Virus record (IMG/VR): IMGVR_UViG_3300035145_001343
Coordinates: 1 to 28,495 of that record
Length of the DNA: 28,495 nucleotides
From: a virus
Direction: 5' to 3' (one strand)
The notes beneath the pieces are model-generated. The model ran no database searches. It was not told the DNA's origin and saw nothing but the letters and a program-made list of their open reading frames with translations. The stretch's first letter is position 1; each line of letters begins with the position of its first letter. The position numbers and the translations under genes were made by a program. Positions 1 through 28,495 of this stretch are shown here, piece by piece.

Positions 1-116
1 CCTCCTTCAGCGGGGAATCGTACCCACAAGGTTTGATGTAGACACCCTGTACGCATAAACGACAAAGCCCCGACAACTGGCGGTAATGCCGGTTGCCGAG
101 GCTCGTCTTAGGCGTG
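1..116. other. Left edge, no complete gene
   Basis: I see no supportable gene here. Positions 1-7 read AAGGAGG on the minus strand, which looks like the Shine-Dalgarno of a minus-strand gene starting just outside the window. Positions 74-95 can form an 8-bp hairpin on the plus strand (CAACTGGC, loop GGTAAT, GCCGGTTG, one G-T wobble); on the minus strand it has a mismatch and no T run, so it is not a convincing terminator. Confidence 0.4.
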
Positions 117-335
117 TCAGGCGTGCTGTAGTTCTGCCACGATCTTGTCGTGATCGTCGTAGGTGCCCCGAACATCGCTCTCGCCGTTGGGGAAGAACAC
201 GCATGTTTCGTTCAGTCGGGCGGTGCCGATGTCGTAGTGAACGGACGACACTTCGATAACGTCGTCAGTTCTCGGAATCGGAATCTTGGTGATTCGCTGG
301 TCACGATGCACCGTCTTGGTGTAGTCGTATTTCAT
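117..335 (-). CDS. Hypothetical protein, 72 aa
   Basis: A short soluble protein of unknown function with many charged residues and no signal peptide or membrane segment. I recognise no family. The start is supported by AAAGGA about 7 nt before the ATG on the minus strand, and a TTGACA / TAGTAT promoter lies about 60 nt upstream. It is the last of three small minus-strand genes, each with its own promoter, an arrangement common in early or accessory phage regions. The overlapping 201-aa plus-strand reading frame is a shadow. Confidence 0.7.
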   Translation of the reverse strand: MKYDYTKTVHRDQRITKIPIPRTDDVIEVSSVHYDIGTARLNETCVFFPNGESDVRGTYDDHDKIVAELQHA

Positions 336-390
336 TACTTGTCCTTTCTTATGGCCTCTCGTAGTGCCATCTCTCTCGTAGGGTATGACG

Positions 391-420
391 ATACTACACC
401 ATACCCGTTGCCGGTGTCAA
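391..420 (-). promoter_or_regulatory. Promoter of the 72-aa gene with possible operator
   Basis: Read on the minus strand: TTGACA (415-420), 18-nt spacer, TAGTAT (391-396). A 7-bp inverted repeat, GGGTATG (381-387) and CATACCC (400-406), brackets the -10 box and could be an operator. The expected transcript has a leader of about 50 nt with a Shine-Dalgarno site. Confidence 0.6.
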
Positions 421-423
421 CAA

Positions 424-451
424 CGTCCCAACCCCCTTCGGAGTTGGGACG
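424..451 (-). terminator. Stable hairpin after the 69-aa gene
   Basis: A perfect 9-bp stem, CGTCCCAAC (424-432) with GTTGGGACG (443-451), has a C-TTCG-G tetraloop inside its loop on the plus strand. It lies 16 nt past the stop of the 468-677 gene and just before the next promoter. The T tract that follows on the minus strand is weak (TTGTTG), so termination is plausible but not certain. Confidence 0.45.
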
Positions 452-467
452 AATGTCGTACCGTTCC

Positions 468-677
468 TCAGTACGCATAGTCGATGCACCGCTCGTGATA
501 CGCCTCCACTGCGGAGTCGTAGGCGTTGGACTTCAGGTACTCTTCCTCGGTACCGTCGAACTCTTCCAAGTCCTCTTGGTACTGCTCAGACTCTACGTAC
601 TCTTCCTCAACACGTGTCCAGTAGTCCAGACGGTCAAGGTATTGGTTTGTTTGGTATGTAACGTGGCAATAACTCAT
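468..677 (-). CDS. Hypothetical acidic protein, 69 aa
   Basis: A small, strongly acidic, tyrosine-rich protein (about a quarter Asp/Glu) with no family that I recognise. Acidic proteins of this size in phages are sometimes DNA mimics or inhibitors, but nothing here shows that. There is no well-placed Shine-Dalgarno. Instead the -10 hexamer TATACT ends 7 nt before the ATG, with TTGACA 16 nt further up, which fits a leaderless mRNA. The stop is followed by a stable hairpin at 424-451. Confidence 0.65.
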   Translation of the reverse strand: MSYCHVTYQTNQYLDRLDYWTRVEEEYVESEQYQEDLEEFDGTEEEYLKSNAYDSAVEAYHERCIDYAY

Positions 678-684
678 GTCCCTA

Positions 685-712
685 AGTATAGTCCTCTCAC
701 TAGGTATGTCAA
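685..712 (-). promoter_or_regulatory. Leaderless-type promoter of the 69-aa gene
   Basis: Minus strand: TTGACA (707-712), 16 nt, TATACT (685-690), then 7 nt to the ATG at 677. Transcription would start at or next to the A of the start codon. Confidence 0.65.
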
Positions 713-719
713 GTCTTTC

Positions 720-998
720 TTACCACTCTCGCCAACTGCGTCCCCAACGGGGTGAAGTCGAACGGAGATAGGTAGCAAGTTCGGGATACTTCTCGGTGAT
801 GGCCTCAGGCAACCACACGTGAACGAACAAGTCGATACTGCGAACGAACCGGCACGGCGAACCGAACCAGAACCGGCTAACCGGCTCACGCTCTTGCTTG
901 GTGGTGAACATACGGAGCCGCTTCATGTCAACATCCCACGGGTCAAGCCCGATACGGTCAACCATGATGCGGAATCCGATGTAGTAGTTGTGGAACAT
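720..998 (-). CDS. Hypothetical protein, 92 aa
   Basis: A 92-aa protein of unknown function, rich in aromatic residues and arginine, with a Trp-rich C-terminus (SPRWGRSWREW). I recognise no domain. Two longer overlapping frames on the same strand (674-889 and 923-1288) are rejected because only this start has a promoter in the geometry used by its neighbours: TACTAT ends 6 nt before the ATG and TTGCAA lies 17 nt above it. Its stop lies about 7 bp beyond the -35 box of the next gene down. Confidence 0.6.
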   Translation of the reverse strand: MFHNYYIGFRIMVDRIGLDPWDVDMKRLRMFTTKQEREPVSRFWFGSPCRFVRSIDLFVHVWLPEAITEKYPELATYLRSTSPRWGRSWREW

Positions 999-1004
999 GG
1001 GTAC

Positions 1005-1033
1005 ATAGTACAGGTGACTGATGCGGATTGCAA
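1005..1033 (-). promoter_or_regulatory. Leaderless-type promoter of the 92-aa gene
   Basis: Minus strand: TTGCAA (1028-1033), 17 nt, TACTAT (1005-1010), then GTACCC and the ATG at 998. There is no Shine-Dalgarno before the start. Confidence 0.55.
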
Positions 1034-1251
1034 CTCAAAGTTATACGGAAATCGCAAAAATCTCAGAGTTTTGACGAGTTTCTGGCTGCGGCTGCGAGAA
1101 TGACGGCTGCGGCTGCGGCAGGGTAGGTGCGTCCCGCTGCGGAGAGCACGAGTCGGGGCTTGGCCGGGGTGCTTGCGGCGGTTGAAGGGGTTGACAACTG
1201 TGGTGTGTTGTGCAGCCAAACTGAACTGAACAAACTTTTTTAGGAAATGGG
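1034..1251. other. Divergent intergenic region with GCTGCG repeats
   Basis: No gene is supported between the divergent transcripts. The 13-mer GGCTGCGGCTGCG occurs twice (1084-1096 and 1105-1117), 8 nt apart. A TTGACA at about 1189 has no matching -10 box. Confidence 0.5.
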
Positions 1252-1279
1252 TTGACATTGCTGATACTGGTGCTAGAGT
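1252..1279 (+). promoter_or_regulatory. Promoter of the 1324-1773 operon
   Basis: TTGACA (1252-1257), 16 nt, TAGAGT (1274-1279). The start of transcription should be near 1286, leaving a leader of about 38 nt that carries a strong Shine-Dalgarno site. Confidence 0.6.
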
Positions 1280-1323
1280 CACAGTCAAGTTCTTTTACAA
1301 CTAAAGAAAGGAGGTGAGACTAC

Positions 1324-1503
1324 ATGTCGATCGTCACTCCGTTGCTGTCTACACAGTGGTGGGACAACGTGTCCGCTGAGGACATGCTTGCCCGTCTGGA
1401 GCGTGACTACCGTTTCGCACTCGGTAACCTGTCTCTTCGTGAGCAGCACCAAGTGTGGACGGACATGGCGACTGTTCGCCAGTACGTCACTCACAACGGC
1501 TGA
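1324..1503 (+). CDS. Hypothetical protein, 59 aa
   Basis: A short frame of 59 codons that starts MSIVTPLLSTQWW and ends YVTHNG. It has one of the best ribosome sites in the window (AGGAGGTGA, 9 nt to the ATG), a promoter upstream and no competing frame, so I treat it as real. It looks like a small soluble, probably helical protein (EDMLARLERDYRF and following). I recognise no family. It is the first gene of a two-gene operon that ends at the terminator at 1800-1823. Confidence 0.7.
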   Translation: MSIVTPLLSTQWWDNVSAEDMLARLERDYRFALGNLSLREQHQVWTDMATVRQYVTHNG

Positions 1504-1584
1504 GTCTCATCGGATAAGTTCCGGCGCTCGGGGGAGCGTGGCAACAGAATCCCCCAATCAACCAACTCCAACCGAAAGGCAACC

Positions 1585-1773
1585 ATGCTTACCAAGCGTT
1601 TCAACATCCGAGTCGGAGACTTCGTGCTTCACAACGGCGCTCCCCGACAGGTAGCCCACAAGTGGAACAGGACGCACGGCTGGGAGACAGTTACAACTTT
1701 CGTGTTTGAAGGTGGTGGCAGTGTCGATCTCTTCGGAGAAGAAACACTCCCCATCATCAAGCCCGTATGGTGA
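1585..1773 (+). CDS. Hypothetical small beta-rich protein, 62 aa
   Basis: A 62-aa protein with alternating hydrophobic and polar residues (RVGDFVLHNGAPRQVAHKW, then a VTTFVFEGGGSVDLFG stretch), suggesting a small SH3- or KOW-like beta barrel; that fold is a guess. The start is supported by AAAGG 8 nt before the ATG. It follows the 59-aa gene after 81 nt in the same transcript, and the stop is followed within 30 nt by a strong terminator. Confidence 0.7.
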   Translation: MLTKRFNIRVGDFVLHNGAPRQVAHKWNRTHGWETVTTFVFEGGGSVDLFGEETLPIIKPVW

Positions 1774-1799
1774 CATAACCCATCAACATCCACCAGAAG

Positions 1800-1823
1800 C
1801 CCACCCTACGGGGTGGGTTTTCT
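1800..1823 (+). terminator. Rho-independent terminator
   Basis: A 7-bp stem, CCCACCC (1800-1806) with GGGTGGG (1811-1817), is closed by a TACG tetraloop and followed by TTTTCT. It ends the 1324-1773 operon. Confidence 0.85.
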
Positions 1824-2193
1824 GCGTTTGAGGCACAGACACGATCAGAACGGCTCAGAAAGCCTGCTGTATCACTCCACGCATCCACACACCCCCAGAA
1901 CGCCTACAAGCCCACAGACACGCTCACAGGCTGTCTCACAAGCAAACAGACAAACAGAGTACTGGTGGACTCCACACAGTCCGAATAGGTAGGGTAAAGA
2001 CAGGGCAGAGGACGAAGCGAACACTCGTTCGGACGAACACATGTTCGGTAATCGACACGAACACCCGTTCGCCCCCCGCCAAGCGAACACATGTTCGGGA
2101 GGGGCGGCAGAGTCCCGCAACTTTTCAACAGCAGCATAGCACCCTGCCCGCAGTTGTGACATATTTTTATGGGGGTTGTTGGTTTGTGTTATG
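1824..2193. other. Convergent intergenic region without a gene
   Basis: Between the plus-strand terminator and the 3' end of the minus-strand SNF2 gene I see no credible coding frame. The two minus-strand frames here (1872-2162 and 1904-2137) are Cys-rich and run through the repeated boxes, so they look like chance. The plus strand is C/A-rich from 1840 to 1990, with a 5-bp inverted repeat GGACT/AGTCC near 1966-1981. The main feature is the array of four LexA-like boxes, listed separately. Confidence 0.6.
2018..2097. promoter_or_regulatory. Array of four LexA (SOS) box-like sites
   Basis: Four sites match CGAAC-N4-GTTCG: CGAACACTCGTTCG (2018-2031), CGAACACATGTTCG (2034-2047), CGAACACCCGTTCG (2058-2071) and CGAACACATGTTCG (2084-2097). 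The pattern is the Gram-positive and actinobacterial LexA box. Distances between starts are 16, 24 and 26 bp. No start codon with a promoter lies next to them, so the regulated gene is not obvious. Other readings are a phage repressor operator array, an origin iteron set or a partition site. Confidence 0.65.
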
Positions 2194-4080
2194 TCAGGGT
2201 TTGGTGTTGAGTATGTTTTGGATTGCTGTTGGTGTGATGGCTGGTTGTGTTTTTTGGGTTTTGTTTTGTAGTGTGTTGTAGATGTGTTGGTCGATTGTTT
2301 GTGGGTTTATGAGGTTGTGGATGGTGGCGGGGTGGTTTTGGCCGATTCTGTGGATTCGGGCGCAGGTTTGGTGGTATTTGGCGGGGGTCCAAGGTGCTTC
2401 GATGAAGAGCATGTTGTGTGATGCTGTTAGGGTGTGTCCGTGTGCTGCTGCTTCTATTGAGATGACGATGTTTTGGCAGTTTGTGTTATTTTGGAATTCT
2501 TGTTTTGCTTTTTCGGTGTCTTTTGGTGGTTGTCCGCCGATGATCATTGGGGCGTTGAGTTCGTTTGCTAGGGTTTGTACTATGTGGCGGTGGTGGGCGG
2601 CGATGACGATTTTTTGTCCTTGGGTGTTTGCGTTTTCGATCCATTCTAGGGCGTGGGGTATTTTGGATTGGGCGGCGATTTTTCTGAGTTCTGTGAGTTG
2701 GATGAGGTTTTCGTAGTTTTGTGTTGCGTAGTGTGCTCGGATTCGTGCTTGGTTGGGGTTGTTGCCTTCGTTGATGGCGATTTGTTCTTGTTGTTGTGTG
2801 TACCATTCTTGTAGGTCGTTGAGGGCGTGGTTGTACATGGTGCGGTGTTTTTTGTCCATTGTGGTGTGGATGGTGTTGTAGGTGATGGGTGGGAGGTCGG
2901 TGAGGACGTGTTCTTTTTCTCTGCGGATGTAGCAGTTGGTTTGTAGTTTGTTGAGGAGTTCTTTGTTGTTGGTTGAGCCGTGGATTTGCCAGTGGCCCCA
3001 GTTGTCTCGGTAGGCTCCGCAGTATCGTTTGTAGAAGTTCCAGCGGCCTCCGAAGTTGTCGATTTGTTGGAGGATTTCTAGTTGTGGGGCGTATTCGGCT
3101 GGCATGTTGGTGATGGGGGTGCCGGTGAGGAGGAGGATGTTGCCGGTGGTGGGGATGTTTTTGGCGATGTTTTTGGCGGCTTTGGTGCGTTGTGCGTCTG
3201 GGTTTTTGCAGTAGTGGGATTCGTCTAGGATGAGGGTGTTGTGGTTTTGGTTGTTGAGGTGTTGTTTTTGGGCGTGGATGTTTGGGTAGCCGATGATGGT
3301 GTAGTCGGTTTCGGTCAGTTCGGGGGTTTTGCGGCCTTCGATGGTTTGGATGGTGCGGTGGGGTAGTGCTTCTTCGATTTTGGTTTTCCAGTCTTCTGTG
3401 AGGCTGGTGGGGCAGATGATGAGGGCTGGGTATTGGTTTGTGTATTCTGTGGTGGCGAGGGCTTGGATGCTTTTGCCGAGGCCCATTTCGTCTGCGATGA
3501 AGGTGCGTTGTTTTTCGGCGGCGTAGGCTACGCCTGCTCGTTGGTAGGGGTAGAGGTCTAGTTGTAGGTTGGGGATGGTGATTTTGGCGTCGGTGGCTTG
3601 TGTGAGGTTTTGGGCGTGTTGGGCTTTTTGGGTTTCGATGTTGGCTTGTGTGCGGATGTGGTCGGGGATGGGGTGGTTGTATTTGTCGGCCCATTGGATG
3701 AGTTCGTGTACGTTGGTGTAGGGGGTTTCCCAGTGATTGTGGTGGGGGTTCCATTTGATGCCGGGGATGGCTTTGAGGTCGTGGATTTGTAGGGTGTCGT
3801 AGGGCACGACGATTTGTAGGATTGCTTTTTCAAGTCTGATGGTGGTTTCGCCTATGGGGTGTTCTGGTAGTTGTAGGCGTATGAGGTCGTCGTCCACGTC
3901 GATGTTCCATGCGTTTGCGAAGGCGATGGCTCGTTTGCGGGCGGCGAGGGGTATTGTCCAGTGTTTGTTGATTTTGTCCCAGCGTGCGTTGGGGAATGAT
4001 GTTTTGAGGGCTTGTACTTCGTCTTTGTTGTAGGGTGTGTCTAGGACGAGTTTTGTGCCTTTGAGGTAGAGTCTTTTCAT
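2194..4080 (-). CDS. SNF2-family DNA helicase with SMARCAL1-like N-terminus
   Basis: A 628-aa superfamily 2 ATPase of the SNF2 type, expected to move along or anneal double-stranded DNA during phage replication or repair. Seen in order: two N-terminal repeats of the form W-D/N-x(4)-HW-x-x-P (about 34-44 and 110-120), resembling the HARP-type modules of annealing helicases; Walker A in DEMGLGKS (about 197-204); the DESH box (about 286-289); LLLTGTPITN (motif III); and a C-terminal RecA lobe ending in motif VI, QTCARIHRIGQ. The frame is open upstream to 4473, but ATG 4080 is chosen because it overlaps the stop of the previous gene as ATGA. It is the last gene of a four-gene operon. The coding strand is very rich in A and C and poor in G and T, unlike neighbouring genes, which suggests separate acquisition. 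Confidence 0.93.
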   Translation of the reverse strand: MKRLYLKGTKLVLDTPYNKDEVQALKTSFPNARWDKINKHWTIPLAARKRAIAFANAWNIDVDDDLIRLQLPEHPIGETTIRLEKAILQIVVPYDTLQIHDLKAIPGIKWNPHHNHWETPYTNVHELIQWADKYNHPIPDHIRTQANIETQKAQHAQNLTQATDAKITIPNLQLDLYPYQRAGVAYAAEKQRTFIADEMGLGKSIQALATTEYTNQYPALIICPTSLTEDWKTKIEEALPHRTIQTIEGRKTPELTETDYTIIGYPNIHAQKQHLNNQNHNTLILDESHYCKNPDAQRTKAAKNIAKNIPTTGNILLLTGTPITNMPAEYAPQLEILQQIDNFGGRWNFYKRYCGAYRDNWGHWQIHGSTNNKELLNKLQTNCYIRREKEHVLTDLPPITYNTIHTTMDKKHRTMYNHALNDLQEWYTQQQEQIAINEGNNPNQARIRAHYATQNYENLIQLTELRKIAAQSKIPHALEWIENANTQGQKIVIAAHHRHIVQTLANELNAPMIIGGQPPKDTEKAKQEFQNNTNCQNIVISIEAAAHGHTLTASHNMLFIEAPWTPAKYHQTCARIHRIGQNHPATIHNLINPQTIDQHIYNTLQNKTQKTQPAITPTAIQNILNTKP

Positions 4081-4277
4081 CTTGGGTTTATTGTTTGGTC
4101 TAACCATTCGTGTACTTCGTTGAATCCGCATTCGGTTAGTTGTTGTTTTGCTTCGGCTCGTTTTTCTGGGCTGTGTTTTATTTTTTCCCAGTTTTCGTCT
4201 GAAAGTATTTCTCGCATTTTGCGGATACTTTGGATAGCCGTGTAGTTGTTGTTTGTACCGAATCGTGGTTTTGTCAT
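4077..4277 (-). CDS. Hypothetical protein, 66 aa (paralogue B)
   Basis: A 66-aa protein of unknown function. Its N-terminal half (RFGTNNNYTAIQSIRK, then EILSDENWE) closely matches the middle of the gene just upstream (RFGTNKNYTAAESIRR, then EIMSPENWE), so the two are tandem paralogues. I place the start at ATG 4277, which overlaps the upstream stop as ATGA and opens with MTKPRFGTN, rather than at 4310. Its own stop overlaps the SNF2 start in the same way, so translation is probably coupled. Confidence 0.75.
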   Translation of the reverse strand: MTKPRFGTNNNYTAIQSIRKMREILSDENWEKIKHSPEKRAEAKQQLTECGFNEVHEWLDQTINPR

Positions 4278-4513
4278 AGTTCGTATTTTTGTACGTCCCA
4301 GTATCCGCATTCTTCGATTTGGGCTTGTCGCCAGTATTGGTCTCTTGTTTCCCAGTTTTCTGGGGACATGATTTCGTTGTATCTGCGGATGCTTTCAGCG
4401 GCGGTATAGTTTTTGTTAGTGCCGAATCGTGTTGCTTGTAGTTCTTTAAACCATTCTGTGTCTGAAATGTCAATCGGTTCTGATATTGAGAATTTGAGGT
4501 CTGAGAATTTCAT
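4274..4513 (-). CDS. Hypothetical protein, 79 aa (paralogue A)
   Basis: A 79-aa protein of unknown function and the longer member of the tandem pair. Residues from about 29 onward (RFGTNKNYTA...SIRR...EIMSPENWE...ECGYWDVQ) align with most of paralogue B; the first 28 residues are unique. Both protein ends are set by ATGA overlaps. The junction upstream and the one downstream share the 12 bases TACGAACTATGA, giving both this protein and the one before it a YEL terminus, as expected if a unit including its junction was duplicated. Confidence 0.75.
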   Translation of the reverse strand: MKFSDLKFSISEPIDISDTEWFKELQATRFGTNKNYTAAESIRRYNEIMSPENWETRDQYWRQAQIEECGYWDVQKYEL

Positions 4514-4860
4514 AGTTCGTACATTTCTTCGGGTAGTACGGGCTGGATTTTGTGGGGGACGGTGTTGTAGGTTTCGTCTAGGTATAGGGGCGTGTTGGGT
4601 CCCATGTAGGCGTTGTAGACGTTGAAGTCGGCGTATTCTTGTGCAGATTCGGGTGTCATGTAGTGGTCGTCTACGAAGATTTGCACAATTTTTTGTTTGC
4701 TGTATACGGCGAGGTGTCTGCGGGTGCCGTCGTGATCCCAGATTTCGGTGTGTCCTATGCAGGCTGCTTCTAGTCCGTCTGCGAATAGTGCGTCGGGGTT
4801 TGCTTCTGCTAGGTGGTCTACTGTGTCGGTGTATCTTGGGAAAAATCCGTATGCTTCCAT
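4510..4860 (-). CDS. Conserved phage-type hypothetical protein, 116 aa
   Basis: First gene of the operon that ends with the SNF2 helicase. The middle and C-terminus (GLEAACIGHTE, AVYSKQKIVQIFVDD, MTPESAQEYADFNVYNAYMGPNTPLYLD) have the shape of a small protein that recurs widely in phages, with a MTPE-AxEYxxFN-xxAYxGxxTP core; its role is unknown. There is no Shine-Dalgarno. TAAACT ends 6 nt before the ATG, suggesting a leaderless mRNA. The stop overlaps the next start as ATGA. Confidence 0.85.
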   Translation of the reverse strand: MEAYGFFPRYTDTVDHLAEANPDALFADGLEAACIGHTEIWDHDGTRRHLAVYSKQKIVQIFVDDHYMTPESAQEYADFNVYNAYMGPNTPLYLDETYNTVPHKIQPVLPEEMYEL

Positions 4861-4866
4861 GCGGCT

Positions 4867-4895
4867 AGTTTACCATATTTTGTGGGGTGGGGCAA
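4867..4895 (-). promoter_or_regulatory. Leaderless-type promoter of the SNF2 operon
   Basis: Minus strand: TTGCCC (4890-4895), 17 nt, TAAACT (4867-4872), then AGCCGC and the ATG at 4860. It lies in the 38-bp gap after the PhyH gene. Confidence 0.6.
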
Positions 4896-4898
4896 ATT

Positions 4899-5864
4899 TT
4901 AGTAGTTGCCGCCGCCGTCTGGGAGTAGCAGATCGGGGTCACCCATGTCGTGTTGGATGCCGTATGATGGGAGGTCTTCCCAGAGCACTCGGTCGTAGGG
5001 AACTTCGGGGAAGTTTCGTCCTAGCCATGTGCGGGTGATTGTGCAGTTGGGGTAGTAGAATCCACCGTCGTCTCCCCAGCGTTGGAAGAAGTGTTCGTTG
5101 GAGTTTGATTTGTTTGTGATGAGGTCGTCTGCCATGATTTCATATGGGACGTGTCCTCCGGCTTTTTCTACTTCTGATTCGGCTACGAGCCGGTTGCACC
5201 AGTGTGCTACGACTGCTGGGCGCTTTACGTTATTTTGTGTGGGTTGGGCGGCTCGGTGTACTGAGCGTCCGTGCCATACTTGTAGGTCACCTCGGCGGGC
5301 GTGGAGTTGCACGATTGGTGCGTTGATTTCTTGTCGGTGAGTTTCAAACTCTGCCGATTTTGGGTGTGTGGTTCTGTCGGGGTTACTGTAACGCTCCCGA
5401 TAGTTTAGGTCCCATTTATGCGATCCGGGGATTGCTTCGATTGCACCGTTTGATTCGTTACAATCACCTAATGCTACCATTCCCCCAACGTAGTTTTTTG
5501 GTCCTACGTCGTGGGGGTGGGTAGCGTCTAGGTGCCATCCGGTGTGTTGCACTGTCATCCGTGTTTTGGTGACGTGCAGTGCTACGGCGATGTCAATTTC
5601 TTTGAAGAAATTGTTTACGCCTTTGTGGCAGAGCACTTCTTTCAGTTCGGGGACGTGCATGTATGCTTTGTCGTCTTCCCATCCTGTGAAGTTTGGATTA
5701 TCGGGTGTGTCGAATTCGGCGTCCCATCGTTCCCCGTACATGTCTAATGACTCGTCGGGTACAGCGTTGGGGATGATCGCAAAGCCGTGCTTTTCGTAAA
5801 ACTCGGCGGTGTCTGTGCGTTCACCGTTGTATTCGTAGTTGTCGATAATCGTGATTTCGCTCAT
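4899..5864 (-). CDS. PhyH-family Fe(II)/2-oxoglutarate dioxygenase
   Basis: A 321-aa phytanoyl-CoA-dioxygenase-like enzyme, expected to hydroxylate a small molecule, sugar, lipid or base using iron, oxygen and 2-oxoglutarate. The facial triad is visible: HxD in TGWHLDATH (H111, D113) and the distal His in GDLQVWHGRSVHRAA (H203), with the 2-oxoglutarate-binding Arg in VKRPAVVAHW (R215). ATG 5864 is chosen over the longer frame to 6128 because it overlaps the deacetylase stop as ATGA. It ends the operon HAD, ThyX, deacetylase, PhyH. A second PhyH enzyme lies at 23829-24728. The substrate is unknown; the deacetylase partner suggests an acetylated intermediate. Confidence 0.9.
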   Translation of the reverse strand: MSEITIIDNYEYNGERTDTAEFYEKHGFAIIPNAVPDESLDMYGERWDAEFDTPDNPNFTGWEDDKAYMHVPELKEVLCHKGVNNFFKEIDIAVALHVTKTRMTVQHTGWHLDATHPHDVGPKNYVGGMVALGDCNESNGAIEAIPGSHKWDLNYRERYSNPDRTTHPKSAEFETHRQEINAPIVQLHARRGDLQVWHGRSVHRAAQPTQNNVKRPAVVAHWCNRLVAESEVEKAGGHVPYEIMADDLITNKSNSNEHFFQRWGDDGGFYYPNCTITRTWLGRNFPEVPYDRVLWEDLPSYGIQHDMGDPDLLLPDGGGNY

Positions 5865-6775
5865 ACCGTTAGTGTAGCAACTTTTTCTTTTTCCCACCAT
5901 TCCATCTGGTTTTCTGCCTTGTTGATGGTATTGATGTGGGATTGGACGAGTTCGTCCATTGTTTGTGCGTGCGTATATCCGCCTGCGAGCACGTAGGCTA
6001 CGGGTGTGTCTGCTTTGTATGCTTCGCTGAACACAACTTGGTCTCGGTATGCGAGGTCTGCGTGCGAAATGCGAGGGTAGGGGTCTGTTCCTGCATTGTA
6101 CAATACAAGGTCGATCTGGTCGTCCCACAAAAGATCAAATGCGGTTTGCATCTGATGAATGTAGTCGTCGCTGTTGTCTGCGTTAAGAATGAAGTGGGTT
6201 TCGTCCTCTGCGTACTCGTCAAAGTAGTTCGTGGAGATGTCGGCTTGCCATACTTGCTGGTCGATGCCGAGGTGTCGTAGTGTTCTTACGGTTCCTCCGC
6301 CGCAGTGTGCGTCAAAATCTAGGATAACAATCTTCATTGACGGGTTCATTTCAAGCATGAAGTTTGCGGCGACAGCCAGACCGTTGACGGTGCAGAATCC
6401 CATGCCTCCGTTGTGGTCGGCGTGGTGCAGACCTGAGGATAGGCTTCCGGCGATTGTCTTGTTCTTGTAGGCTTCGGATGCGGCGTTGATTACTCCTAGG
6501 GTGGAGTTGAGTGCCATTTCCCAAATGCCGTAGTCCCATTGGAAGCCGTTAGACTGTGCTCTCGGTCCACCAGTTTGGAGGGCTTCGTAGTATTCGGGCG
6601 TGATCGCCTTGCGGATTGCTTCGTCTGCGTCTTGCAGGTTGAAGTGTCCGTGCGTGGCGGGGTCACTGATGTGTTCGTGGCCAATCGTGTCTGCGATGTG
6701 TCCGCTCTTGCGGGTTGTGTCGAAGGCGTGCTTGGCTCCGGTGTATTTTTCGTTCCAGTAAATTGTGTGTTTCAT
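5861..6775 (-). CDS. HDAC/AcuC-fold zinc deacetylase
   Basis: A 304-aa member of the arginase-deacetylase superfamily that also holds histone deacetylases, AcuC and acetylpolyamine amidohydrolases. The catalytic set is complete: the His dyad in GLHHADHNGGMGFC (H117, H118), zinc ligands in DFDAHCGGGT (D155, H157) and in YNAGTDP (D231), and the active-site Tyr in LAGGYT (Y267). It should remove acetyl groups from an amine. ATG 6775 is chosen over 6889 because AAGGAG sits 4 nt before it. It follows thyX by 11 nt and overlaps the PhyH start as ATGA. Such enzymes are unusual in phages; the target could be a polyamine, a sugar or a host protein. Confidence 0.9.
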   Translation of the reverse strand: MKHTIYWNEKYTGAKHAFDTTRKSGHIADTIGHEHISDPATHGHFNLQDADEAIRKAITPEYYEALQTGGPRAQSNGFQWDYGIWEMALNSTLGVINAASEAYKNKTIAGSLSSGLHHADHNGGMGFCTVNGLAVAANFMLEMNPSMKIVILDFDAHCGGGTVRTLRHLGIDQQVWQADISTNYFDEYAEDETHFILNADNSDDYIHQMQTAFDLLWDDQIDLVLYNAGTDPYPRISHADLAYRDQVVFSEAYKADTPVAYVLAGGYTHAQTMDELVQSHINTINKAENQMEWWEKEKVATLTV

Positions 6776-9295: not shown

Positions 9296-11101
9296 TCACC
9301 AAGGAGTCACCTCGTCGTCAAACTCTTCGTTTTGGTATGCTTCGTTTAATTCTTCATCACTACGATCTGATCCTTGCGGAGCAACACTGTTTTGATACTG
9401 TGAGAACTCTACGACTTCAAAAGGCCATGTTTCACCACGCTTACAGAGAGCAGGCCATTCTCGGGCTTCTCGCTGTCCACGGTAGTGCTTGAACTCAATC
9501 AGTTCAGGATCGGTGGGGTCGGGCGCTAGTGCTAGACCGAACTCTGACCAGCGTGACCATACGGCTGAACCGAACGGTCGTAGGTCTCGCTGACCGCCTG
9601 AACCTAGCGGAGCGTGGTGCTCAATCCAGAGCGCACAGTTGTAGGTGTGCCGGATGTAGTCTAGGAACTTGGCAATTTCGATTGAAACTGACTCTGCTGT
9701 TCGGCCACCGGGGTCAATGAACGCTTTGTAGAGCGGCCCGAAGAAAACAATGTCGGGCTGAACCATTGCCACGTGCTCTTCAATGAGCGCCTTGTCTTTG
9801 GGCGTCAACAAGTTAACACCGTCAGGCTTCATCAACAGGTGTGCGTCCATGTCTTCGTGCTTGCCAAACCACTTGATCTTGTCATAGATACGCAACGATG
9901 TGCGCCGAATGATTCGTTCAGGGTTTTCTAGGTCGATCATCAATGTACGTACCTTCGGCATTGCATCACGACGGAACGGGTGGATGCCTGCGGATGACAT
10001 GAGTGCAACCTGTCGGGCGAGGGTAGTCTTACCGGCACCCTCAGCGGCGACAACGATGACACGCTCTTGACGCTCTAGTACGTTGGGAATCACCCAGTCG
10101 TATGAGAGGTCTACGTCGGTCTCTAGGAACGGTGACCATTCAACAAGGTTGCCCCCGTCTTCGTGTTGGCGGTCCTTGGTGCTGATGAAGGAGTCGAAGT
10201 GTGACGCTACCCGCCCCATGAGAAGACTTTCGCTCATCTCTTGTCCTTGCAGGTCTGCGAGACTGCTGATCAATTTGCTGAGCGCAGTGTCATCCGTTTC
10301 TTCAGGTTCAGGAATAGCCGTGGCATCAAACGGTGTAAGCGTGTCCGCTAACTCGTCACCAGCGTCAATTAGGTCGGAAACGTCATTGTACTTTCCGGGC
10401 TTGAACACCTTGACGTTGCATCCGGCTTCGGTGAGCATCTTGTTAACGGAGCGTGCGTGTAGGTAGCCTGCTTCGTCGTTATCGCAGATGATGATGACGT
10501 TTGCTCCAGCAAGCGCTTCAGTGTGATGAGGCATCCATTTGTTTTGGCCTTCTGCACCTGCACCACCGGGGTTGGTGGTAGCAGTCTTGCCCAGAGCCTC
10601 TAGGCTGTGTACGTCCTTCTCGCCTTCTACGACGTAAATCGGACGGCCTTCTTCCTTGGCGTGAATAACTTGGGGAAGACGGTACAGTGGCTTTTCAATG
10701 TCTGAAGTTGACCAGTTCCAGCCTCCCGCATCTTCATCGGGGCGACGTTGCCTGAAAGTCTTCTTACCGTTGTCGTCTACAAACCGCAGAACCTCCATCG
10801 CTAGAGTTCCGTCTGCATAGTAGTACTTGTAAGTGTCAACAAGGTCCAACTTAGACTTCTTCGGCTTAGGTGCGTCCTTGGGGAACAAGTCACCAACCTC
10901 TAGCCCGATAGACTCACAAATCTCGCCAAGTTCACATCCGCCACCACGCAGGCACTTCATTAGAACCTGACCTTGCTTGCCGACCGACACCCGCAAAGAA
11001 GGGTTGTCGTCGTCACTGCGGCAGGGGCATGTAGCATCCCACTGGTTCTTTCCAGATGACGTGTGGTTGACTCGTGCTAGTACGTTATCAATCGGTTCCA
11101 T
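9296..11101 (-). CDS. Bifunctional primase-helicase
   Basis: A 601-aa replication protein joining a DnaG-like primase half to a RecA-fold helicase. Seen in order: an N-terminal zinc-binding motif (C25, C27, C50, C56); a TOPRIM domain with EGEKD (159-163) and DNDEAG (207-212); and a P-loop AAEGAGKTT (352-360) followed by a Walker B-like DIVFFGPLY stretch. The helicase half looks more like RepA/RSF1010-type ATPases than the T7 type. ATG 11101 is chosen over 11158 because GGAG lies 4 nt before it and the protein then begins at a conserved-looking N-terminus. It overlaps the preceding gene by 14 nt. It should prime and unwind DNA at the phage fork. Confidence 0.93.
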   Translation of the reverse strand: MEPIDNVLARVNHTSSGKNQWDATCPCRSDDDNPSLRVSVGKQGQVLMKCLRGGGCELGEICESIGLEVGDLFPKDAPKPKKSKLDLVDTYKYYYADGTLAMEVLRFVDDNGKKTFRQRRPDEDAGGWNWSTSDIEKPLYRLPQVIHAKEEGRPIYVVEGEKDVHSLEALGKTATTNPGGAGAEGQNKWMPHHTEALAGANVIIICDNDEAGYLHARSVNKMLTEAGCNVKVFKPGKYNDVSDLIDAGDELADTLTPFDATAIPEPEETDDTALSKLISSLADLQGQEMSESLLMGRVASHFDSFISTKDRQHEDGGNLVEWSPFLETDVDLSYDWVIPNVLERQERVIVVAAEGAGKTTLARQVALMSSAGIHPFRRDAMPKVRTLMIDLENPERIIRRTSLRIYDKIKWFGKHEDMDAHLLMKPDGVNLLTPKDKALIEEHVAMVQPDIVFFGPLYKAFIDPGGRTAESVSIEIAKFLDYIRHTYNCALWIEHHAPLGSGGQRDLRPFGSAVWSRWSEFGLALAPDPTDPELIEFKHYRGQREAREWPALCKRGETWPFEVVEFSQYQNSVAPQGSDRSDEELNEAYQNEEFDDEVTPW

Positions 11102-17264: not shown

Positions 17265-17293
17265 AGGATACTACATATGCTAGCGTCTGTCAA
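17265..17293 (-). promoter_or_regulatory. Promoter of the 105-aa gene
   Basis: Minus strand: TTGACA (17288-17293), 17 nt, TATCCT (17265-17270). The -35 box overlaps the recA stop codon. The leader is about 20 nt with a Shine-Dalgarno. Confidence 0.65.
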
Positions 17294-18264
17294 ATAGATG
17301 AGTAGATAGTGTCCGCAATAGTTTCTCGGATGTCTTCGTTTTCATCCAAGAACGCCTTCGTGTTGGCACGGCCCTGTCCGATGTTCTCACCCTTGTATGC
17401 GTACCACGCACCCTTCTTATCAAGGATGCCCATTTCGGCGGCGATGTCTACAATGTCTCCGGTACGGCTAATTCCCTCACCGTATGCGATTTCAAACTCT
17501 GCCTGACGGAAAGGTGGGGCGCACTTGTTCTTGACAACCTTAACTCGTGTCTTGTTACCGGACGCTTCGCCGCCATCCTTCAACGTTTCAATACGGCGAA
17601 TGTCCATTCGGACTGACGCATAAAACTTAAGCGCCTTACCACCAGTAGTCACTTCGGGCGAACCGAACATTACGCCAATCTTCTCACGCAACTGGTTGAT
17701 CATGATGAGCGTCGTCTTTGAGTTGTTGAGATTTGCAACAATCTTACGCATGGCTTGCGACATGAGGCGAGCGTGCAGACCAACATGACTGTCTCCCATC
17801 TCACCCTCAATTTCCGCACGAGGTGTAAGCGCTGCCACTGAGTCCACGACCACAACATCCAGAGCACCCGATTCAATCAACTTGTTCGTGATTGTCAGGG
17901 CCTGTTCGCCTGTGTCTGGCTGTGAAACGAGAAGATCGTCAATGTCGCATCCGATTGCCTTAGCGTACACAGGGTCTAGTGCGTGCTCTGCGTCGATGAA
18001 CGCACACTTGCCACCGTTCTTTTGGGCCTCTGCAATAATGTGAAGCGCAATAGTGGTCTTGCCTGAAGACTCAGGGCCATAGATTTCTGTAACTCGCCCA
18101 CGAGGCACGCCTCCGACACCCAACGCCAAGTCAAGAGCAATGGAGCCGGTTGAAATTGTTTCGATCTGCATTGAAGCGGCGTCACCAAGACGCATGATGC
18201 TTCCTTCGCCAAACTGCTTTTCGATTTGACCTAGGGCATCTGAGAGAAGTTTATCTTTATCCAT
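17290..18264 (-). CDS. recA: RecA recombinase
   Basis: A 324-aa bacterial-type RecA, slightly shorter than the usual 340-350 because the acidic tail is reduced. Seen: Walker [10 protein letters not shown] (63-71), Walker [11 protein letters not shown], the L1/L2 region with [18 protein letters not shown] and [31 protein letters not shown], and a normal C-terminal domain. It forms the strand-exchange filament in recombination and could trigger LexA cleavage. There is no Shine-Dalgarno; TACAAT ends 6 nt before the ATG, so a leaderless mRNA is likely. No SOS box lies at its promoter. Confidence 0.98.
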
Positions 18265-19232: not shown

Positions 19233-19450
19233 CGGTTCCAGAATGGTTTGGGTCAGCGCCATGCGTGGGAGAAGATGGTTTGTTCTTTTCTTCGCACCCG
19301 AGTAAACGTCGTATGGCGGTAGCCATTTGCGAGAATGAGTGTGAGTTTAAGAGTGAGTGCTTGGATTTTGCAGTCAGCAGCAAGATGAGTGTTGGTGTTT
19401 GGGGCGGTAAGACTGGGCCTGACTTGGTACGGATTTTAGAGTCTACGTGA
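19220..19450 (+). CDS. whiB: WhiB-family iron-sulphur transcription factor
   Basis: A 76-aa WhiB-like protein, a small [4Fe-4S] regulator that binds the host sigma factor and changes transcription. Four Cys are present (C15, C37, C41, C47), with LFFSS after the first and the GVWGG turn (GVWGGKT) before the basic or helical end. The usual spacing is C-xn-CxxC-x5-C; here the second and third Cys are three residues apart, giving CxxxC. ATG 19220 is preceded by AAAGGAG with 4 nt spacing, so the longer frame from 19139 is rejected. The next gene overlaps its stop as TGATG. The family is limited to Actinobacteria and their phages. Confidence 0.9.
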   Translation: MFDVTVPEWFGSAPCVGEDGLFFSSHPSKRRMAVAICENECEFKSECLDFAVSSKMSVGVWGGKTGPDLVRILEST

Positions 19451-25477: not shown

Positions 25478-26095
25478 ATGACTGAATATTACCGAGGCGA
25501 TCAGGGATATAGAGACTCTGATATTTTTCAGATTTTCATTGATAAGATGAATACAGGCGAGCCAAAGTCAATTCTTGAAGTTGGTGTAGCGCAGTCACAG
25601 CCCGGAAGATCAACTCACAGCATGGGACGTTTCGATAACCTCAACGAGTATGTTAAGTCAGACTTTGTGGATGATGGTGCTGACGTAGATGTTGTTGCTG
25701 ATATTCACCAGTTGGAAGACACTTTTGAAGCATCTCGTTTTGATGGTTTCGTGGCCCGGTTTGTTTATGAGCATGTTGAAAAGCCGTGGTTAGCATCTGC
25801 TTCAATAAATCGAATTTTAAAGTTAGGCGGATTGGCGCATATTCACACTCACCTAACCTTCCCAATACACGGTTATCCTAACGATTATTTTCGGTTCACA
25901 ACAGATGGGCTAGTTTCTTTGTTTGACGATAGTTTCGGATTCCGTACATTAGCATGTGACTTTCAGTCACCCTGCGCTCTATCCTTTGTTGGTGGACAGA
26001 AAGCGCCTGAGGTGTGGGACGAGTATGCTGCTCAACACAGAAACTACCTAGATGTGCTGTTGGTCGCAGAGAAAGTCGCAGATTATGATTCATAA
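25478..26095 (+). CDS. Class I SAM-dependent methyltransferase-like protein
   Basis: A 205-aa protein with the Rossmann methyltransferase layout: motif I ILEVGVAQS (32-40), an acidic loop DVDVVADIHQL (69-79), motif IV-like FDGFVARFVYEHVEKPW, and the strand after RILKLGGLAHIHTH. It resembles type 11 methyltransferases and those in sugar pathways rather than DNA cytosine or adenine methylases, since no catalytic PC or DPPY motif is seen. AAGG precedes the ATG by about 7 nt. Its end overlaps the ParB-like gene by 11 nt. Confidence 0.8.
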   Translation: MTEYYRGDQGYRDSDIFQIFIDKMNTGEPKSILEVGVAQSQPGRSTHSMGRFDNLNEYVKSDFVDDGADVDVVADIHQLEDTFEASRFDGFVARFVYEHVEKPWLASASINRILKLGGLAHIHTHLTFPIHGYPNDYFRFTTDGLVSLFDDSFGFRTLACDFQSPCALSFVGGQKAPEVWDEYAAQHRNYLDVLLVAEKVADYDS

Positions 26096-26885
26096 CATCG
26101 CAGATAATATTCAAAGCCTAGCAGTAGATATTGCATTATTGCACCCGTTGGAGAACAATGCACGGCGAGGTAATGTTGATGCAATCATGGCGTCTTATGA
26201 TAAGTTTGGTCAGGTAAAGCCTATTGTCGCTGTAGAGAACGATAGTGGTGGTCTTACTGTTATTGCTGGAAACCATCAGTTAGAAGCAGCGAAGCGGCTA
26301 GGTTGGGAGAAGATTGCTGTCTCTATTGTCAATTTGGATAGCGATGACGCACTAGCGTTTGCTCTAGCAGATAACAGAATCTCCGAACTGGGCACTACCG
26401 ATAACGACCTGTTGTATCAGATGCTTACCGATGTCCTAGGGGATGACGAAGAATTTTTTGACGTTCTGGGATGGGACGACTTTTCCGTCGCCGCTATCGA
26501 AAACACGGTAATCTCCGATACGTTCGTTGACACGGTTGATCCGAACGGCGGATGGACTGCGCCAGAGATCGTTGTGAGTGATGCTTCTAGTGGCTCAACT
26601 GCCACGTCACTTCCACCTGCCACTACTCCTACACAAACACCCTCTACTCCCACTACTCCCCCTACGGCTTCTGTAGAAAACGTCGTGACGCAGGGAAGCA
26701 CTGCTGTGGGTGCATCAGGCACTACCAATGCTTCTATTCAGTTCACTCTCGTGTTTGAGGGTGCGGAACAGCAGTCCAAGTGGTATCAGTTCCTACGGTG
26801 GCTACAAGAAGCACCGGCCTATGACGGTGATACTACGAGTGAGCGCCTGCTAGACTTCATCGCACAGCACTCTCCTAGAGGTTAA
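26085..26885 (+). CDS. ParB-like nuclease-domain protein (IbrB-like)
   Basis: A 266-aa protein with an N-terminal ParB/sulfiredoxin-fold domain: NARRGNVDAIMASYDKFGQVKPIVA (26-50) and the phosphate-binding AGNHQLEAAKRLGW (61-74), then ALADNRISELG. A Pro/Thr-rich linker (about 165-200) joins a separate C-terminal domain (TLVFEGAEQQSKWYQFLRWLQE) of unknown function. There is no ParA partner and no HTH of chromosomal ParB, so plasmid-type partition is unlikely. The PAPS-reductase-like gene starts 1 nt after its stop, the same pairing as IbrB with IbrA. Confidence 0.88.
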   Translation: MIHNIADNIQSLAVDIALLHPLENNARRGNVDAIMASYDKFGQVKPIVAVENDSGGLTVIAGNHQLEAAKRLGWEKIAVSIVNLDSDDALAFALADNRISELGTTDNDLLYQMLTDVLGDDEEFFDVLGWDDFSVAAIENTVISDTFVDTVDPNGGWTAPEIVVSDASSGSTATSLPPATTPTQTPSTPTTPPTASVENVVTQGSTAVGASGTTNASIQFTLVFEGAEQQSKWYQFLRWLQEAPAYDGDTTSERLLDFIAQHSPRG

Positions 26886-26886
26886 C

Positions 26887-28059
26887 ATGCCTAGACGCAG
26901 AATGTTTTTGGACATGAACTGTGTGGACGCTGCACGGCACAGAATTCGCCATATCTACGACACGTTCGACACTGTGTGCGTTCAGTTTTCTGGCGGCAAA
27001 GACTCTACTGCGTGTCTGTATTTAGCAAAAGAAGTTCATGATGAGCGAGGCTTAGGCCCCGTCAAGGTTATTTTCCGTGACGAAGAAATGCTGTCTCCCT
27101 CTATTGAAGAGTATGTCAAGCGTGTCAGCGAATATGACTGGGTAGACATGGAGTGGTATTGCTTACCTCAAGGCCAAGAGTTGTGGGTTCTGGGCGCTAG
27201 ACAGTACGTGTTGCTGTGGTCTAAGTACCGAGAGTCACAGGGGCGGTTGTTCCGGCCTTATCCTGAGAACGCCATTCGTGCGGAACACTTTGGGCTAGAC
27301 CCAAACGAGGCAATCCCTAAGCGAATTGATGAGTACACCATGCAGGGCAAGAAGGGACGTACTGCGTTCATTACGGGTATCCGTGCTAACGAGTCGATGA
27401 TCCGGTATCGGACTGTTACGCAAAAACTCCACGAAAACTACATTAACCGTCCATTCCAGTTGTCTAAAGCGATTCCCCTCCGCTTCGCTAAGATCATTTA
27501 CGATTGGACATCTGACGATGTTTTGAAGTACATCACAGAAGAGCACGATGCAGAGTACTGCGCATACTACGACTATGCGGCGATGAGTGGCGCAAATCAG
27601 CGTGTGGGTATTCCGCTTCACTCGGTTGCGGCCCGAAGACTTACGGACGTTATCCGCACTGAACCAGAGTTCTACGATGAGTTAGTCCGGTGCTTCCCTT
27701 CTATTGAAGCACAGCGTCAGTTGTGGTCAGAGTTTGATATTGAGATGGTTATTGACTTGTACTCTAGCATGGGCTGGAAGGGAGTCAAATATTGTATTGA
27801 CGACAATATCTTGACAGACGGATTGCACAAGGCGGCGATGCTTTACTCCAATGAGTTCAAGAAGCGCCACGCTAAAGACCCTTACGGGTACCCGATTGAC
27901 CATTTGGTACGAACTCTTCTACTGAACGCTTTCTTTGGTACACCAAGTCCTGTTGGTCCGAAGACCAAGGCGCACAATAAGCGAGTTGCGTTGTTTGAGC
28001 AGGAAGAGCAGATACTGATGGATGCGGACACCCTTGACTTGCAGGATGACACTAGGTAG
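26887..28059 (+). CDS. PAPS-reductase-like PP-loop protein (IbrA-like)
   Basis: A 390-aa adenine-nucleotide alpha-hydrolase family protein. The PP-loop is SGGKDST (35-41), which binds the pyrophosphate of ATP or PAPS. It lacks a clear C-terminal sulphite-transfer Cys motif of true PAPS reductases, and its size and charged C-terminus fit IbrA/DndC-like enzymes that adenylate or thiolate other targets. AGAGG lies 5 nt before the ATG. It is flanked on both sides by ParB-domain genes, which suggests a three-part system. Possible roles are nucleic-acid modification or resistance to host defence. Confidence 0.88.
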   Translation: MPRRRMFLDMNCVDAARHRIRHIYDTFDTVCVQFSGGKDSTACLYLAKEVHDERGLGPVKVIFRDEEMLSPSIEEYVKRVSEYDWVDMEWYCLPQGQELWVLGARQYVLLWSKYRESQGRLFRPYPENAIRAEHFGLDPNEAIPKRIDEYTMQGKKGRTAFITGIRANESMIRYRTVTQKLHENYINRPFQLSKAIPLRFAKIIYDWTSDDVLKYITEEHDAEYCAYYDYAAMSGANQRVGIPLHSVAARRLTDVIRTEPEFYDELVRCFPSIEAQRQLWSEFDIEMVIDLYSSMGWKGVKYCIDDNILTDGLHKAAMLYSNEFKKRHAKDPYGYPIDHLVRTLLLNAFFGTPSPVGPKTKAHNKRVALFEQEEQILMDADTLDLQDDTR

Positions 28060-28068
28060 GCTATTTAG

Positions 28069-28495
28069 ATGCAGACTCAACACATCTTTCTTGCCGATTT
28101 GAAGATTGGTGGATGGGCAACGTCATGTTATGTTGTTCAGCCTGACTACAAGCGCTTGATGACTTCAATTGAAACATACGGAGTTCTGTCACCGCTAGTA
28201 GTTCAGCAGGGTACCAACACCATCGTTGATGGGCATCATCGCTTGAGGGCCGCACAAGAGTTGGGTTTGTCTTCTGTCCCTTGCGTCCTCGTGGAATGCG
28301 ATGACATTGAGGCCGTGTTACTGCACATTGATCTCAACCGCTATCGTGGCGTTGTGGTGGCCAAGTTCTTGTCTAATTTGATTGGATATATTTTAGAGAC
28401 AGGTGTGTATGAGTACGACGCTCTCAGGGAACGCATGGCGTTGTCAAAAGAAGAGTTTGATATTTTGGCAGACGGCACCCTAGTCAAGATGCGGA
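28069..28495 (+). CDS. Second ParB-like protein, partial (runs off right edge)
   Basis: An open frame from ATG 28069 to the window end, 142 codons seen. It starts MQTQHIFLADLKIGGW and holds a ParB core: SIETYGVLSPLVVQQG (33-48) and DGHHRLRAAQELG (54-66), then LLHIDLNRYRG. The sequence is clearly different from the ParB-like protein at 26085-26885, so it is not a recent copy. GGTAGG lies about 9 nt upstream. The C-terminus is not in the window; a fusion to another domain is possible. Confidence 0.88.
   Translation, partial: MQTQHIFLADLKIGGWATSCYVVQPDYKRLMTSIETYGVLSPLVVQQGTNTIVDGHHRLRAAQELGLSSVPCVLVECDDIEAVLLHIDLNRYRGVVVAKFLSNLIGYILETGVYEYDALRERMALSKEEFDILADGTLVKMR

Follow-up and report, generated by a model that had tools for sequence, protein, structure and literature searches.

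A cluster of four LexA-type operators between converging genes of a putative actinobacterial phage, a candidate decoy for host LexA

Introduction

Phages are known to hijack the host regulator LexA, either through LexA boxes at their own promoters or through anti-repressors, and in GIL01 (PMC4551915) and SPbeta (PMC8270828) host LexA is used at phage promoters. Clustered sites for another host regulator have been reported in a phage of Alphaproteobacteria, in which 12 canonical CtrA sites occupy a 1.3-kb gap and are associated with "lytic deferment" (PMC9437464). Removal of a regulator by surplus binding sites also has a precedent, since PMC8203912 cites work in which added sites titrate DnaA. 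In addition, infection by Rhodococcus phage WC1 raises host SOS genes early (PMC10986025).

Here we analyzed an IMG/VR fragment, record IMGVR_UViG_3300035145_001343 (28,495 nucleotides, hereafter the window, meaning the whole stretch), which carries a cluster of LexA boxes. GIL01 and SPbeta likewise carry boxes for host LexA that are of this type (PMC4551915, PMC8270828), but those boxes lie at promoters and control phage genes, whereas the array in the window has no promoter, and the number, spacing and flanks of its boxes vary freely. The CtrA clusters resemble it as many host-regulator sites in a large non-coding phage gap, yet they serve another regulator and occupy a divergent gap, where they have been interpreted as controlling promoters (PMC9437464). 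datA and plasmid DnaA boxes work alike in that extra sites draw off a host regulator; however, they are not phage loci, and the window has LexA boxes only. That phages make use of host LexA sites is thus already known, while non-promoter arrays for several factors appear to be undescribed, and in the open-access literature we came across no account of LexA or LexA/DnaA arrays that act as decoys.

Results and discussion

Four exact LexA-type boxes lie between converging genes

Four exact CGAAC-N4-GTTCG sites were located within 80 bp of the window (2018-2031, 2034-2047, 2058-2071 and 2084-2097), with the inner bases ACTC, ACAT, ACCC and ACAT in order on the + strand. A first-order Markov simulation gave an expectation of 0.0325 exact sites per window length, so four sites in 80 bp are not attributable to chance, and a search of the entire 28,495-base record for the same 14-mer returned none beyond these four. 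The features of the locus are as follows.

1324..1503, + strand: small ORF of 59 aa, preceded by the promoter-like site at 1252-1279 (ORF list)
1585..1773, + strand: small ORF of 62 aa, converging on the array (ORF list; without Pfam match)
1805..1817, + strand: terminator-like hairpin, predicted from sequence to end the + transcript ahead of the array
2018..2031, + strand: LexA-type box 1, CGAACACTCGTTCG (exact match)
2034..2047, + strand: LexA-type box 2, CGAACACATGTTCG (exact match)
2058..2071, + strand: LexA-type box 3, CGAACACCCGTTCG (exact match)
2084..2097, + strand: LexA-type box 4, CGAACACATGTTCG, 97 bp past the helicase stop (exact match, alignment)
2098..2193, - strand: spacer from the helicase stop to the array (alignment of relatives)
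2194..4080, - strand: SNF2-type DNA helicase of 628 aa, the gene used to anchor the locus in relatives (Pfam SNF2-rel_dom, 4.8e-31)

The setting is convergent, with the + strand ORFs ending at 1503 and 1773 and the helicase gene, on the - strand, ending 97 bp from the nearest box. The cluster and its convergent gap, as described in the first-pass annotation, were therefore borne out by exact matches and gene ends, and so was its remark that no gene start lies beside the sites. The sole sigma-70-like promoter within 1000-2700 was the one at 1252-1279 on the + strand, and neither a promoter-like site nor a gene start was found beside the array, so the boxes do not sit at a promoter as they do in GIL01 and SPbeta. 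The phage recA gene (17290-18264, - strand), also said earlier to have no box, indeed carries no exact one. Small ORFs that run across the array (e.g. 1904-2137, - strand) were rejected as genes, because the box surroundings cannot be aligned between relatives at about 90% helicase identity.

This setting bears on the possibility that the boxes are operators of an SOS-regulated phage transcript, either a small RNA or an overlooked gene, as in GIL01 and SPbeta. It is in this way that phages are documented to use LexA boxes (PMC4551915, PMC8270828, PMC9437464), and many arrays in unrelated phages, those of Gordonia phages included, lie in divergent gaps; the window array, however, has no adjoining promoter-like site or gene start facing it and its surroundings are not conserved, which makes such a transcript distinctly unlikely here.

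As a separate observation, an abrupt and extreme strand bias sets in from the array on, over the helicase gene (about 2160-4500), with GC skew of up to 0.49 and AT skew to -0.58.

The motif matches LexA operators of actinobacterial hosts

The window encodes, among others, WhiB, RecA, ThyX, SSB, TK, Rad52-like and Cas4-like genes, of which one is a host marker:

19244..19414, + strand: WhiB domain, a marker of actinobacterial hosts (E 5.9e-13)

WhiB was present in 28 of the 48 records searched (8 of the 48 from the family of the window) and, as a sequence marker, supports an actinobacterial host without pointing to any species. The epimerase was discarded as a host pointer, as it had matches in 397 of 397 Actinomycetota genomes with a best identity of about 40% and hence named no host. 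A DNA search of the window against annotated phages gave no match, and tblastn with the helicase and RecA retrieved distant phage relatives only. Elsewhere in the window, two ParB-like proteins (26052-26885 and 28069-28494) flank a PAPS-reductase-like gene, and this stretch (26052-28494) is possibly a DNA-modification or nuclease module. The two ParB-like proteins also bear on a centromere-like (parS-like) role of the boxes, which would require a cognate ParA/ParB system.

The LexA ChIP motif of S. venezuelae is tCGAAC-N4-GNNCGa (PMC9380542). We scanned a genome collection in which each species is represented once for runs of three boxes, which returned 100 stretches, many of them dispersed repeats of a few MAGs rather than LexA sites; in these unrelated genome repeats the inner bases followed R-N-N-Y in just 79 of 250 cases, with 25% expected. 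In a peptide-motif scan, 13 records had a LexA N-terminus no more than about 220 bp from their boxes, and these bore the labels Acidimicrobiales, Acidimicrobiia, Ilumatobacteraceae, Nitriliruptoraceae or Actinomycetota (L215, L216, L218, L222, L232, L250, L252, L256, L257, L261, L276, L279 and L283, in which lexA is accompanied by triple or quadruple boxes). Going by the N-terminal peptide motif, we counted clusters "at the lexA start" in at least 12 Acidimicrobiia/Nitriliruptoria-type genome records, and left two records (L226 and L282) out of the adjacent set, as their LexA genes lie more than 1.1 kb from the cluster. The LexA DNA-binding HMM matched in 18 of the 18 genomes searched. On this evidence, the triple and quadruple boxes at these lexA loci read as an unusually strong autoregulatory array.

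The inner R-N-N-Y pattern of the lexA-adjacent boxes (39/44) was found in all 26 boxes of the phage family and in 187 of 228 boxes of phage arrays. The core CGAAC-N4-GTTCG and the inner R-N-N-Y are thus shared by the phage array and by LexA operators (SOS boxes) from Actinomycetota and Gram-positives, although the phage array sits 3' of two converging genes and away from promoters. The earlier proposal of a match to the actinobacterial SOS box is upheld by the WhiB gene on the phage and by the same clustered motif at lexA in Acidimicrobiia/Nitriliruptoria-type genomes. That the sites in the window are LexA-type operators is well supported by these comparisons, and host LexA very probably binds the array.

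Boxes persist at the same place in relatives while their flanks vary

Helicase relatives were found at 62-97% identity, and every relative of 77-95% identity that reaches the locus carries one to seven boxes there: seven in G001 (helicase 95%), five in G007 (91%), one exact box plus one site with 1 mismatch in both G003 (90%) and G004 (87%), two in L204 (78%), and at least three in L202 (77%), where a fourth is cut by the contig end. In all relatives with boxes, the first box lies 85-180 bp beyond the helicase stop. The 40 nt after the helicase stop codon align between relatives, and within the spacer at 2098..2193 the first ~40 nt (CATAACACAAACCAAC..AAAAATATGTCACA) and an AAAAGT motif are kept while the remainder varies, whereas the sequence between boxes cannot be aligned and the spacings differ. 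Sites conserved amid variable flanks were what the first-pass annotation had named as support for a function, and this pattern was found; the conserved spacing that it proposed to look for was absent, as no spacing is common to the relatives. Nor did helical phasing emerge, with box spacings of 16, 24 and 26 in the window and of 16-263 in relatives following no common period. The cluster thus appears to be kept by selection where no promoter lies.

In a further reading, LexA bound to the array would halt transcription, as a roadblock or terminator, and so keep the two converging units insulated from each other. The convergent position, the recurrent placement of the first box shortly after the helicase stop, the absence of a detectable terminator-like hairpin for the helicase strand in the window and the uniform polarity of the boxes agree with it. 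Arrays in unrelated phages, however, lie mostly in divergent or tandem gaps, a single box would be a weak block, and SOS induction during infection would lift the block, so we regard a roadblock as very improbable.

In family records with boxes, the boxes are confined to this locus, apart from a second cluster in G007, 8 kb away, that comprises three LexA boxes and a DtxR-like motif. With one cluster in the window and in G001 and two in G007, the sites are not dispersed as in a stoperator array. The earlier suggestion of a phage repressor array or stoperator, taken here as an immunity-type array whose phage-encoded repressor would copy the specificity of LexA, would explain multiple similarly oriented sites in intergenic DNA, but is disfavoured: no Peptidase_S24 (LexA/CI) protein was found in 9 family records and no tyrosine integrase or resolvase in 12 records, any of which may be fragments, the sites are limited to one or two clusters, and the consensus is exactly that of host LexA. 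We consider this reading extremely improbable.

The content of the locus also changes between relatives. In L205 (helicase 65%), several TTAGGTNNGCTTAACAT palindromes follow position 5884 and no LexA box is found, and in L192 (2967-3104) palindromes of the TTAGGTNNGCTTAACAT type stand beside LexA boxes; we take these palindromes to resemble DtxR/IdeR boxes. L192 further holds, at 10839-11077 (G007), nine tandem palindromic repeats of 26-27 bp, of the CCGACC-N5-AGTCGGGAATCAAA type, between LexA boxes. The locus of G004 contains at least 10 DnaA boxes (TTWTCCACA) in addition to its LexA site, while the window array contains none.

LexA-box arrays recur in other phages and adjoin DnaA boxes

Triples of LexA boxes were found in 83 IMG/VR stretches, compared to 1 for a mirrored control pattern. 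These 83 correspond to about 42 unrelated loci, and simple home-made gene calling put most of them in gaps between divergent or tandem genes. Some viral triples (L131, L147 and L014) were discounted, being inside ORFs and having non-LexA inner bases. Among cultured phages, seven Gordonia phages (Zierdtviridae), with Marietta, IDyn and Emianna among those with conserved box clusters, keep three or four sites adjoining divergent genes. Neighbouring boxes point the same way almost throughout (same versus opposite pairs: 29 vs 0 in the family, 104 vs 4 in other phages and 13 vs 1 at host lexA), and this uniform polarity may reflect local duplication.

DnaA boxes occurred at 0.86/kb within 400 bp of LexA boxes compared to 0.09/kb elsewhere in the same loci, a density about nine times higher, with 0.04 for the mirrored motif. 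In 72 IMG/VR stretches (about 31 lineages), a LexA box had a DnaA box no more than 31 bp away, versus 5 stretches for the mirrored motif, or 55 versus 5 once a 17-contig lineage with non-LexA inner sequence is discounted. One stretch, L158, holds four DnaA-box clusters in 2.4 kb (126-2493), and ahead of a small gene its LexA boxes alternate with palindromes of the TGTGAC-N4-GTCACA type.

These associations raise the question of whether the locus is a replication origin or a site of initiation control, where iteron-like repeats would be bound by DnaA and LexA of the host or by an initiator of the phage. The DnaA boxes of G004, the adjoining LexA and DnaA boxes in about 31 lineages and the cumulative GC skew, which begins rising at the G007 array and runs down toward the array in G001 and G004, are in keeping with an origin. 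The skew nevertheless tracks gene strand and is flat left of the array in G007, the window array has no DnaA box, and L205 carries DtxR-box-like sites with neither LexA nor DnaA boxes; an origin would leave these LexA-only and DtxR-like forms unexplained, as well as the repeated clusters (four DnaA clusters in L158, two LexA clusters in G007). We therefore judge an origin unlikely.

A decoy for host LexA as the preferred reading

Among the functions offered by the first-pass annotation, titration of LexA fits best, and we tentatively favour, with confidence just short of even, an array that binds host LexA and acts chiefly as a decoy or sponge. The sequences themselves show the motif to be of LexA type, conserved where its flanks are not, placed off promoters in the family and repeated in many phage lineages; from there we infer binding by host LexA and its depletion. 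Host LexA would bind the high-consensus operators of the array, and as phage DNA multiplies, the growing number of array copies would soak up LexA. Loss of LexA would in turn free the SOS genes from repression, and the phage could profit from what these genes provide in repair, polymerase and nucleotide functions. The early rise of host SOS genes upon WC1 infection fits a decoy, although it is no test of it.

Decoy action accounts for the non-promoter site, the free number and spacing of boxes, the exact consensus, the swaps of motif class and the presence of several arrays per genome, the last of which (DnaA clusters of L158, two LexA clusters of G007) is easier to square with decoys than with one origin. 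Against it, relatives with one or two boxes weaken the case, and G003 and G004 in particular, with one exact box and one mismatch site, would titrate weakly. A simple sponge would not need the same-way orientation seen in the family, which local duplication can explain, and most arrays of unrelated phages lie in divergent or tandem gaps, so some of them may be ordinary operators.

Relatives and unrelated phages have loci of the same kind in which DnaA boxes and further palindromes of regulator type are also present, so that the locus resembles a general site where DNA-binding control proteins of the host would dock or be drawn off. In a broader form, which we regard as possible while leaning against it, many actinophages would keep evolvable non-promoter "regulator sponge" loci that serve several host master regulators together (through boxes for LexA and DnaA, and probably for iron and other regulators), with the motif class swapped at the same syntenic place, and would thereby reprogram SOS and host replication during infection. 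If true, the pairing of LexA operators off promoters with arrays of DnaA boxes, across dozens of lineages, would suggest that DNA decoys are a common, protein-free form of host control. The conserved clusters in cultured Gordonia phages make the decoy idea testable in laboratory strains now.

A pseudoknot RNA near the array

An H-type pseudoknot RNA was observed at 1510-1555 of the window on the + strand, and also in L192 (five aligned copies, from G007) and L332-L356. It consists of a short hairpin followed by CGC..GCG, the loop of which pairs with sequence past a nearly invariant GTGGCAACAGAA linker. A search of Rfam with window 1-5000 and six further loci gave no match to it; the one sub-threshold match in window 1-5000, to RNAI, was judged to be chance. 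Covariation was seen in 9 of its 13 pairs, and the strict pattern occurred in 28 viral stretches. Some carriers, namely L031, L158, G007 and the contig of L128, also hold LexA-box clusters.
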